In this document: positions 11,719-13,256 of the stretch, one piece after another | How the letters are laid out: each line of letters starts with the position of its first letter | How positions within the stretch are numbered: position 1 is the first letter of the stretch | Assembly: GCA_027451605.1 (NCBI GenBank) | Contig: DAIDJA010000010.1 | Span: 1 to 13,923 of the forward strand | Direction of reading: 5' to 3' | DNA length: 13,923 nt | Source of the DNA: Acidimicrobiales bacterium | GTDB taxonomy: Bacteria; Actinomycetota; Acidimicrobiia; Acidimicrobiales; JABEUL01 | The notes under the pieces: model-generated | Database searches by the model: none | What the model was told of the DNA's origin: nothing | The model's input: only the letters and a program-made list of their open reading frames with translations | Position numbers and translations under genes: made by a program

Positions 11719-12354
11719 TCATATTATCGTCGAAATGTAATCTTCCATTGTAGCTTCGGCAAGTTCATACTGTTTGGTTTTGATTAAGTCAACAACATTT
11801 TCATTAACAAACTGTTTTAAGTTTGCAGATTCAGTTGGGACATTGTTGTCTTTAAGTCGCTGCCTGGCTTCGGTGAGGAGGTTAAAAAGTAAAATTAAGT
11901 CTTCGTCTAATAATTCATCAAAATAGTCTCTTAGCCAGGCGGCAAAGGTGGGTGATTTCCCGAATGTGGAGACAGATACCATGATTCCCGATTTTTCCGA
12001 CTTAGCCGGCAGAATGAAATTACAGGATTCAAACTGATCGGCTGAGTTAATCCATAACTTGTTGTCTTCACAATCCGAAAATATTGTGCGGTCCAGCTTT
12101 GGATTACCGGTAGCTGAAATTACAAGCCAAACGTCCTTAAGATCCGATTTGTCATAAGCCTTTTGTAGCAAGGTTAAGTTTTCGTCATTCATCTCTAGGA
12201 GTTCATCGATAAAGTCAAGGGAGACAACTTTCACCTGTGCATATGAATCAAGCAGGGCTCTAACTTTCTTAAAAGCCACGGGCCCACCGCCAACTACCAG
12301 GCATAATTTATTTTTTAGTATTAAGTTAACCGGAAAAGTCTGGTATCTACTCAT
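11719..12354 (-). CDS. sirC: precorrin-2 dehydrogenase / sirohydrochlorin ferrochelatase (SirC/CysG-N type)
   Basis: 211 aa, the length of a stand-alone CysG N-terminal or Met8p-like protein without the methyltransferase domain. It oxidises precorrin-2 to sirohydrochlorin with NAD and, in bifunctional relatives, inserts Fe to give siroheme, the cofactor of sulfite and nitrite reductases. Motifs: FPVNLILKNKLCLVVGGGPVAFKK (7-30, including the NAD-binding GGGPVA), WINSADQFESCNFILPA (101-117), with D106 aligning with the catalytic Asp, and VSTFGKSPTFAAWLRD (128-143). It is divergent from cysH, also a sulfur assimilation gene, and probably leads the transcript into uppS. No SD precedes the ATG. 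The repeated operator region lies about 125 bases upstream, so shared control with cysH is possible. Confidence 0.85.
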   Translation of the reverse strand: MSRYQTFPVNLILKNKLCLVVGGGPVAFKKVRALLDSYAQVKVVSLDFIDELLEMNDENLTLLQKAYDKSDLKDVWLVISATGNPKLDRTIFSDCEDNKLWINSADQFESCNFILPAKSEKSGIMVSVSTFGKSPTFAAWLRDYFDELLDEDLILLFNLLTEARQRLKDNNVPTESANLKQFVNENVVDLIKTKQYELAEATMEDYISTII

Positions 12355-12478: not shown

Positions 12479-12566
12479 AAAAGTTGACTAAACTGGTCAA
12501 CTATTGCTGAAAAGTTGACTAAACTGGTCATATATTATTTAAAAGTTGACTAAATTAGTCAACTTT
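12479..12566. promoter_or_regulatory. triple IscR/Rrf2-like operator, 31-bp phase, in the sirC-cysH spacer
   Basis: Three palindromes with arms GTTGAC and GTCAAC start at 12483, 12514 and 12545, exactly 31 bp apart, close to three helical turns. Copies 1 and 2 share GTTGACTAAACTGGTCA; copy 2 has a degraded right arm (GTCATA). Copy 3 is GTTGACTAAATTAGTCAAC. With its flanks it forms 12-bp arms AAAGTTGACTAA (12542-12553) and TTAGTCAACTTT (12555-12566) around one base. From memory of the E. coli type 1 IscR consensus, copy 3 agrees at 23 of 25 positions, copy 1 at 22 and copy 2 at 20. Each copy contains TTGACT, a usable -35 box, so a bound protein would block polymerase. The regulator gene is not in the window. 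Confidence 0.75.
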
Positions 12567-12576
12567 ACCATATTAG
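12546..12576 (+). promoter_or_regulatory. candidate cysH promoter embedded in operator copy 3
   Basis: TTGACT at 12546-12551 is a good -35 box. CATATT (12569-12574) follows at 17 bases, or TATTAG (12571-12576) at 19. Transcription would start near 12580-12585, just before the ribosome site AGGAGA at 12588-12593. The arrangement only works if translation begins at the ATG at 12606. An alternative is TTGACT in copy 2 with TTTAAA (12538-12543). Confidence 0.4.
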
Positions 12577-12605: not shown

Positions 12606-13256
12606 ATGACTTTAGTGAGAGATGAAGATTTAGATTTTGAGTCATTAACGATAGAAGAGCTTCTTGGGTGGACTTCTTCAACTTTTGGAGATGATGTCGT
12701 CCTGGCCGCATCCTTTCAGGATGTAGTAATGATTGATATTGTGGCAAAAGTAATTCCGAATATAAAAACCGTATTTATTGACACCGGGAGTCACTTTAAA
12801 GAGACTTTGGAATTTGTGAACTATATAAAAGATCGTTACAGTTTGAATTTAATTGTCATTGAGCCGGAAGTAAGTGCCGAAGATTTTCCGTGCGGAAGTG
12901 GAAACTGTTGTAAGTTGAGAAAGGTTGAGCCATTTAATAAATATTTAAAGGAGTCTCAGGCAAAAGCCTGGATCTCGGGAATCAAAAGAGTGGATACCCC
13001 AGAAAGAGAAAACGCTCCCATTGTAGGCTGGGATGAAACTAAAGGACTTTATAAGATTAATCCTATCGTAACCTGGAATGACGAAGACGTGGATGTTTAT
13101 TCCAAAAATAATGGCTTGCCTCAGCACCCACTTGTTAAACGCGGATATCTCTCGATAGGATGTGCGCCGACTACGGTTCCGGTTAAACCCGGTGAAACGG
13201 TACGCAGCGGGCGGTGGGCAAATATGACAAAAACTGAATGCGGTTTACATATCTGA
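12606..13256 (+). CDS. cysH: APS/PAPS reductase (assimilatory sulfate reduction)
   Basis: 216 aa from the ATG at 12606. The enzyme reduces activated sulfate (APS or PAPS) to sulfite with thioredoxin-type reductants. Motifs: AASFQD (34-39) and FIDTGSHFKETLEF (57-70) of the PP-loop fold, CC at 101-102 in NCCKLRKVEPF, the arginine-rich ISGIKRVDTPER (123-134), SIGCAPTT (183-190) and the catalytic C212 in ECGLH. The CC pair normally pairs with CxxC to hold a [4Fe-4S] cluster in APS-type enzymes, yet here CxxC reads CAPT (C186, T189), so one ligand is missing. The frame extends upstream to a TTG at 12546, but that codon lies inside operator copy 3, whereas AGGAGA (12588-12593) serves the ATG. The gene is divergent from sirC and ends before a strong terminator. 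Substrate preference (APS or PAPS) is unresolved. Confidence 0.9.
   Translation: MTLVRDEDLDFESLTIEELLGWTSSTFGDDVVLAASFQDVVMIDIVAKVIPNIKTVFIDTGSHFKETLEFVNYIKDRYSLNLIVIEPEVSAEDFPCGSGNCCKLRKVEPFNKYLKESQAKAWISGIKRVDTPERENAPIVGWDETKGLYKINPIVTWNDEDVDVYSKNNGLPQHPLVKRGYLSIGCAPTTVPVKPGETVRSGRWANMTKTECGLHI

Follow-up and report, generated by a model that had tools for sequence, protein, structure and literature searches.

Upstream of cysH in the window, by which we mean the whole 13,923-nucleotide stretch of Acidimicrobiales DNA analyzed here, three palindromes of the IscR type-1 kind form an array that recurs in related genomes. With a probability of about 0.65, judged from sequence comparisons, this array is the three-site operator of an order-wide sulfur and cysteine regulon of the Acidimicrobiales, most likely read by an Rrf2-family protein encoded on contig C78 of the same genome, hereafter the A-type. 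The array and its conservation are secure. The parts of the reading that go beyond them carry their own grades: a sulfur regulon under the operator is very likely, an Rrf2 protein as its reader is likely, and the A-type as that reader is probable.

A first-pass annotation of the window had described three palindromes at an exact 31-bp period in the spacer between sirC and cysH, the last of them perfect to 12-bp arms. Both statements are correct: the 25-bp palindromes (Table 1), which together span 12480-12566, start exactly 31 bp apart at both steps, and 12 of 12 arm positions pair in copy 3, compared with 9 of 12 in copy 1 and 7 of 12 in copy 2. When the window was scanned with AGTTGACTAAANTAGTCAACT, allowing up to three mismatches, there were five strand-matches at three places, all of which are the array; 0 of 200 dinucleotide shuffles of the window matched the pattern. 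The identity of copy 3 to the IscR type-1 consensus, which the annotation had put at 23 of 25 positions, is exact against ATASYYGACTRWWWYAGTCRRSTAT, the consensus as printed in the accessible text of PMC6599224. What did not survive is the idea that a degraded middle copy tunes the response. The GTCAT(A/G) right half of copy 2 recurs in the upstream copies of three relatives (G001, G002 and G003), and both halves of a perfect site at the sir gene, TATGACTAAATTAGTCATA, are of the same kind; the copy-2 half-site is a recurrent variant, not decay.

Table 1. The cysH control region and adjoining genes, in window coordinates
Feature	Position	Strand	Remarks
Operator copy 1, AAAGTTGACTAAACTGGTCAACTAT	12480..12504		22/25 to IscR type-1 consensus
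Operator copy 2, AAAGTTGACTAAACTGGTCATATAT	12511..12535		20/25; right half is the GTCAT variant known from relatives
Operator copy 3, AAAGTTGACTAAATTAGTCAACTTT	12542..12566		23/25; counterpart at the same place in 6/6 family genomes
cysH, (phospho)adenylyl-sulfate reductase, gene under the array	12606..13256	+	NF002537, TIGR00434
sirC-like siroheme synthase N-terminal domain protein	11719..12354	-	TIGR01470 121.4 bits, cut-off 62.3
Candidate core promoter: -35 TTGACT inside copy 3, weak -10 CATATT at 17 bp	12546..12574	+	inferred

The product of the gene under the array scored 223.6 bits against NCBIfam NF002537 (cut-off 154) and 195.5 against TIGR00434 (cut-off 165.1). Starting from a TTG within copy 3 (12546) would lengthen the cysH open frame; the ATG at 12606, with a GGAG box before it, is the likelier start. 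The sirC-like gene is divergent from cysH and may have a control region in common with it. At the opposite end of the window from cysH, positions 334-2052 encode a VirD4/TraG-type conjugative coupling protein.

Conservation was assessed in 59 genomes, comprising the window's genome and its relatives, 45 of which have cysH. The family of the window's genome contributes six of these (G000 to G005). A comparison across relatives, of the kind that had been proposed for the array, showed 31-bp-spaced sites before cysH in all six family genomes, with three copies in G000 and G001 and two in G002 to G005. One further 31-bp step upstream of the family arrays, only 2 to 6 of 12 arm positions pair. For the rest of the order, we built a matrix from the family sites only and ran it on the DNA upstream of cysH and sir in non-family genomes, comparing each region with its own shuffles. 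We found that 33 of 47 upstream regions scored at p<=0.05, where 2.4 would be expected; 31 of these loci reached the lowest attainable value (1/61) and two had a value of 0.049. This test left out four sir loci whose upstream DNA was missing or misplaced (L107, L114, L118 and L122), as well as the own loci L003 and L106, whose sites belong to the training set. The common form of the motif in the order is close to AAACTTGATCGGATTAGTCAGGTTT.

The 14 loci missed by the matrix are 11 cysH and three sir regions. In six genomes of missed loci (G007, G010, G014, G016, G024 and G035), cysH lies directly behind a motif-bearing sir. The cysH locus of G044 (L014) was scored as a miss, and a site is present there farther upstream. 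In G019, the matrix scan found the motif at neither cysH nor sir.

Tandem sites also occur outside the family, at other distances. They are 27 bp apart before cysH in G199 and G360 (family f32), the latter with sirC and uppS divergent from cysH as in the window; at sir, the spacing is 31 bp in G028 and 29 bp in G024. A 28-bp tandem in G392 adjoins a gene with no assigned identity, and the stretch viewed around the tandem of G025 holds no recognised sulfur gene. The exact tandem pattern was found in 12 of 397 genomes of the order, four of them from the family and three from f32, while a control pattern gave one match; gene context for these 12 leaves out G050, G183, G197 and G291. A contig scan for relatives with cysH as the query confirmed none. 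The helical phasing proposed in the first-pass annotation agrees with the family, where the 31-bp step is kept in all six genomes, and is not supported as a general rule. The kept spacing supports cooperative stacking within the family only, as far as sequence can speak to it.

We then have the other genes at which the motif stands. In the window's genome, the perfect palindrome at sir overlaps the promoter of a Sir/NirA-type reductase gene (C2:2233), and the site is present in all three family genomes with readable upstream DNA (G000, G002 and G003). The reductase matched 11 NCBIfam models, each with a score under the model's cut-off (for NirA, 232 vs 523), and we read it as a sulfite reductase because its gene adjoins cysH in other genomes. 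A site on C250 lies between a ThiF-rhodanese gene of the MoeB/MoeZ type, whose product is above the MoeB cut-off (560 vs 449) and below that of MoeZ, and a divergent nitroreductase-like gene. This site is kept in G000, G001 and G002 (L039 ~1405-1766, L324 ~1164-1624 and L347 ~1409-1744), and in G000 and G001 it is closer to the nitroreductase-like gene, which could be the target instead. On C52, a site precedes a 1-Cys peroxiredoxin gene; the site is present in G000, G002, G004 and G005, and in the last three it stands in a divergent spacer that also faces a HAD-phosphatase-like gene, which could likewise be the target. On C138, a site lies behind mec at the contig end, and the same site is found between mec and cysO-cysM in G001 and G003; this spacer site is thus present in three of the five genomes with mec. 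A JAB domain is present in the product of mec. The cysO-like protein belongs to the MoaD/SAMP1-type carriers, and the cysM-like protein narrowly misses the cysKM cut-off (317.7 vs 344.15). Within the Mec-CysO-CysM pathway, CysO and CysM form the sulfur-carrier route to cysteine. Two more genes have the motif at fewer places: in G003, one whose product is sulfide:quinone-reductase-like and scores below the family cut-off, and in G004 and G005, one for a TauE/SafE exporter.

The first-pass annotation had suggested an Fe-S- or cysteine-sensing Rrf2 regulon and a genome scan near suf, cys and Rrf2 genes. The genome does have Rrf2 genes, and the motif does recur at sulfur genes including cys, with A/T-rich ends to the sites; Fe-S assembly targets were not borne out. 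Among five suf loci (suf fragments of G005 were left out), four have no site at up to four mismatches. The fifth, in G002, has two poor matches, an intergenic one with four mismatches and another, with three, that falls within the second SUF gene. From these positions, the targets look like a sulfate-reduction and cysteine regulon, not an Fe-S assembly regulon. As a separate observation, G003 (94% complete) has no SufB/SufD match, and its five sister genomes have one.

The argument for a regulon rests on the conservation and position of sites, not on raw genome-wide counts. Matches at up to three mismatches, set against a reversed-pattern control, numbered 32/17 in G000, 42/16 in G001, 37/50 in G002, 31/23 in G003, 28/15 in G004 and 19/19 in G005. 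Because these counts are near or below the control in some genomes, single sites are weak unless they are conserved. Matches in C84, C107 and C22 of the window's genome were set aside, as they fall within other genes or at their ends. Further 1-mismatch matches in this genome (C18, C30, C70, C95, C107:713 and C253) were left out of the gene annotation.

As for the placement of the sites relative to promoters, only the promoter of sir could be located firmly. There the -35 box, ATGACT, coincides with the left half-site; a TATAAT box lies 18 bp further on, and the start codon comes six bases after it. This promoter is far clearer than that of cysH, whose -10 box agrees with TATAAT at 4/6 positions. 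The sir transcript is probably leaderless, and the site is in a repressor position: a bound dimer would cover the -35 box and the spacer. The reductase loci L106 and L108 (both ~1460-1500) and L133 (~1360-1400) share a TATAAT box (TATTAT in L133) shortly before the ATG, with the operator over the -35 box and spacer. At the moeB/Z and peroxiredoxin sites, a box resembling TATA or TAAA was seen by eye farther downstream; this would put a bound dimer near -40, from where it could act in repression or activation.

As for the reader, the possibility that the window's genome lacks an Rrf2-family gene is settled. This genome, which is 83% complete, encodes two PF02082 proteins: the A-type (C78, 147 aa) and a longer one, the C-type (C2, 317 aa). 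The A-type has the Rrf2 DNA-binding domain that IscR also has, at 133.4 bits against PF02082 (cut-off 30). It occurs in 54 of the genomes, and the 30 orthologues examined all keep Glu43, Gln44 and Arg59 (IscR numbering here and below), the last of which we take to be the wing recognition residue of IscR; at the position of IscR Ser40, all 30 have Pro. In IscR, Ser40, Glu43 and Gln44 bind the major groove (PMC5411485). At the positions of the IscR ligands Cys92, Cys98, Cys104 and His107, the 30 A-types have Pro, Cys, Cys and Leu, and their invariant residues include Asp8, Arg12, His93, Cys98, His100 and Cys104. The A-type scored 101.4 against the IscR equivalog TIGR02010 (cut-off 207.55), 83.2 against the CymR equivalog (cut-off 195) and 38.4 against the NCBIfam NsrR model (cut-off 182). 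Because its scores are below both the IscR and the CymR cut-offs and its IscR ligands are incomplete, the A-type is by strict membership neither IscR nor CymR. Going by its sequence and that of the operator, it nonetheless seems to act in the manner of CymR, on an operator of the IscR-like kind.

The A-type is missing from five of the 59 genomes, four of which also lack cysH. The fifth, G004, has the array and no Rrf2 match; contig C31 ends ~55 bp before the expected 3' end of the A-type gene, and the absence looks like an assembly gap. Among 120 listed homologues, the organism names, where given, are Acidimicrobiales, Acidimicrobiaceae or Actinomycetota. Co-occurrence with cysH across the 59 genomes (44/1 vs 10/4, Fisher p 0.009) ignores kinship and is weak evidence, and it says little because the A-type is nearly universal in the order. 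Outside the family, the A-type is the only Rrf2 match by phmmer in 12 genomes, 10 of which were scored for the motif: it was at the lowest attainable p in seven, at 0.049 in one, and absent from two (G019 and G021). The retention of Glu43, Gln44 and Arg59 in 30/30 orthologues and the clear motif in seven of these 10 genomes support the A-type as the reader.

In the loci viewed, the A-type gene does not adjoin sulfur or suf genes (in G038, it is ~8 kb from cysH). The Rrf2 part of the proposed genome scan also came out negative for autoregulation: by eye, no clear site was seen within 130 bp upstream of the A-type gene at 30 loci (one of them with ~50 bp), and partial look-alikes stand before it in L080 (G003) and L093 (G053). 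Since the loci viewed show neither adjacency to these genes nor a clear own-gene site, the link between the A-type and the operator rests on presence and absence, residues and motif shape.

Motif shape bears on a different class of reader as well. In a scan of named genomes for tandems, we found at least 119 stretches at at least 80 loci, mostly from Bacillota, with the TTGAC-N7-GTCAA core mostly at 33-36 bp; the spacing counts are a sample among the matches listed. Also among the matches listed were the iscR promoters of Vibrio and Kosakonia, with a TTGAC-N7-GTCAA tandem at 25 bp. Because Bacillota tandems with the same core adjoin TetR-like genes, the core by itself is not diagnostic of Rrf2. 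McbR is a TetR-type cysteine regulator of C. glutamicum, and the main rival reading, conceivable although we think it unlikely, is that a TetR-family functional analogue of McbR reads the TTGAC-N7-GTCAA palindromes of the Acidimicrobiales. A TetR-like gene adjoins Bacillota tandems of TTGACC-N5-GGTCAA at 33-36 bp in five of six loci viewed, and Pfam TetR_N was found in all three proteins tested beside them, but the 110 sites of 55 such tandems (the TetR neighbor having been checked in few) lack A/T ends and mostly have A or T beside the core. Specifically, the outer six columns are all A/T in 28 extracted family sites, a set without the middle copy of L004 and the peroxiredoxin site of L344. 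In 13 order sites, selected on nothing but their inner 17 bp, these columns average 5.8/6 A/T, compared with 2.3 expected from G+C; in the 110 Bacillota-type sites the average is 3.4/6. The flank score, out of 6, was 4.4 for the family (n=28), 4.4 for the order (n=13, flanks ignored in the choice), 5.2 for iscR (n=6) and 1.7 for the Bacillota tandems (n=110), so that family and order sites differ from the tandem sites at p 7e-14 and 8e-7, respectively. Our first flank figures for the order were biased, since a 25-column matrix selects such flanks (L008 was also left out of them), and the analysis was repeated with the inner 17 columns. Neither family nor order sites take the Bacillota TetR-type form, with A or T next to the core and no A/T-tract ends. 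The array has both the 25-bp consensus and the conserved A/T-rich ends of an IscR type-1 operator; the A/T-rich triplets at either end are reported to rank with the most conserved bases of type-1 sites (PMC6599224). The ends of the operator thus favor an IscR type of reader. Two further groups from the scan deserve mention. In Bacillota, TetR-like genes adjoin TTGACC-N5-GGTCAA tandems at 33 bp in L203, L213, L216, L223 and L240, which could be mistaken for IscR sites. In Mesorhizobium, IscR-like tandems at 25 bp stand near TonB-receptor-like (L234 and L266) and isochorismatase-like (L227) genes, and are perhaps an alphaproteobacterial Rrf2 regulon.

Another Rrf2 paralogue could read the array in place of the A-type, though we consider this improbable. 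One candidate is a CymR-like protein without cysteine ligands, the B-type (~150 aa), whose gene is near sir or cysH in G006, G014, G015 and G034 (L141-L144) and which has Glu43 in five and Arg59 in six of six examined; it could own the motif there, but it was not found in the six family genomes. In those other families, the B-type may share the operator or have taken it over. The second candidate is the C-type fusion, the second Rrf2 of the window's genome (L070:10358-11311), encoded on C2 ~6 kb from sir; in both G000 and G001 its gene is on the sir contig. In the four C-types examined, the IscR-type ligand set is complete (Cys, Cys, Cys, His), yet they have Ser at 43 and Ala or Ser at 59, in place of Glu43 and Arg59. 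There is no C-type match in G004 and G005, both of which keep the array. Similar proteins (L136, L137, L138, L145, L148 and L149) are ~295-350 aa long, with no Pfam match in the C-terminal extension. Several C-type genes are preceded by a different recurrent block, seen by eye, like ACGTCAAGT...ACTA(T/C)ACT, which argues against the C-type as reader of the array. Finally, the sites might be -35 boxes with accidental symmetry, or chance altogether, given that TTGAC is a -35 consensus and that at sir the left half of the site occupies the -35 position. We regard this as extremely improbable: the shuffled windows gave no match, the upstream copies keep both halves at 31 bp without good -10 boxes, the A/T ends are kept in G+C-rich genomes, and 33 of 47 order loci carry the motif.

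The system with the A-type as reader resembles several known ones, each in part. With the IscR type-1 system of Proteobacteria it shares a 25-bp palindrome that has A/T-rich ends around a YYGAC...GTCRR core, tandem sites that overlap the -35 region, and an Rrf2 protein with Glu43, Gln44 and Arg59. In Pseudomonas aeruginosa, single type-1 sites overlap or cover the -35 box of nfuA and tpx (PMC6599224). Unlike the IscR tandems of Vibrio and Kosakonia, which are spaced at 25 bp, those here are spaced at 31 bp in the window's family and 27-31 bp elsewhere in the order; the sites stand next to genes of sulfate reduction and cysteine, and the suf loci checked gave no convincing one; and of the four ligands, the A-type keeps only Cys98 and Cys104. 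With CymR of Bacillus and Staphylococcus, it has in common the Rrf2 repressor family and, probably, cysteine and sulfur targets: operators were found at cysH, sir, mec/cysO, moeB/Z and peroxiredoxin genes, and the A-type is their probable regulator. Solved structures of relatives include those of CymR (2y75 and 3t8r). CymR works without a cofactor (PMC5411485), whereas the A-type has invariant Asp, His and Cys residues. Asp8 and Arg12, a cluster ligand and its salt-bridge partner in the [4Fe-4S] NO sensor NsrR of Streptomyces coelicolor, also an Rrf2 protein (PMC5411485), are invariant in the 30 A-types examined, but of the three NsrR cysteines, the first is missing from the A-type. An actinobacterial parallel is IGTS8_peg394 of Rhodococcus qingshengii, a CymR/Rrf2-annotated protein proposed from proteomics as a global sulfur regulator (PMC8557817). 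That proposal, in the accessible text of the paper, is based on abundance and CymR similarity, without an operator or target list.

Under the A-type reading, plentiful reduced sulfur or cofactor would let A-type dimers occupy the sites, cover the -35 box and spacer, and block cysH and sir, with cysO-cysM, the MoeB/MoeZ-type gene and the peroxiredoxin gene probably repressed alongside. Copy 3 at cysH would act by overlapping the candidate -35 box, and dimers stacked 31 bp apart upstream would add occupancy, possibly cooperatively: 31 bp is about three helical turns, which would place three dimers on one face of the helix. When sulfur runs short or the cofactor is lost, the repressor would leave, and sulfate reduction and cysteine synthesis would be turned on. 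Because Asp8, Arg12, His93, Cys98, His100 and Cys104 are invariant, a reasonable guess is that these residues supply an unusual set of ligands for an Fe-S cluster, or for another metal, that serves as the sensor. The full model, in which the A-type uses IscR type-1 operators, senses metal or Fe-S through Asp8, His93, Cys98, His100 and Cys104, and runs both sulfate reduction and the CysO-CysM route, is offered tentatively, as a possibility that we would not bet on.

We found no paper with both Rrf2 and Acidimicrobi- in the open literature, from whose coverage subscription journals mostly fall outside, and none in the wider, mostly open-access literature that clearly deals with an operator of this kind at cys genes of actinobacteria. 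According to the accessible part of a 2011 review, regulators comparable to CysB and Cbl had not been identified in mycobacteria (PMC3141025). With a conserved operator, a specific candidate protein and a small set of genes to examine, the question can be tested directly. The results also suggest that an IscR type-1 sequence alone is not a signature of Fe-S assembly control, which calls for caution in motif-based regulon annotation. Fe-S assembly takes its sulfur from cysteine. If the A-type senses metal or Fe-S, the cysteine supply would track Fe-S or metal status, and the suf genes themselves would lie outside the operator regulon. If this is true, a near-universal Rrf2 protein of the Acidimicrobiales would combine two classical Rrf2 roles.
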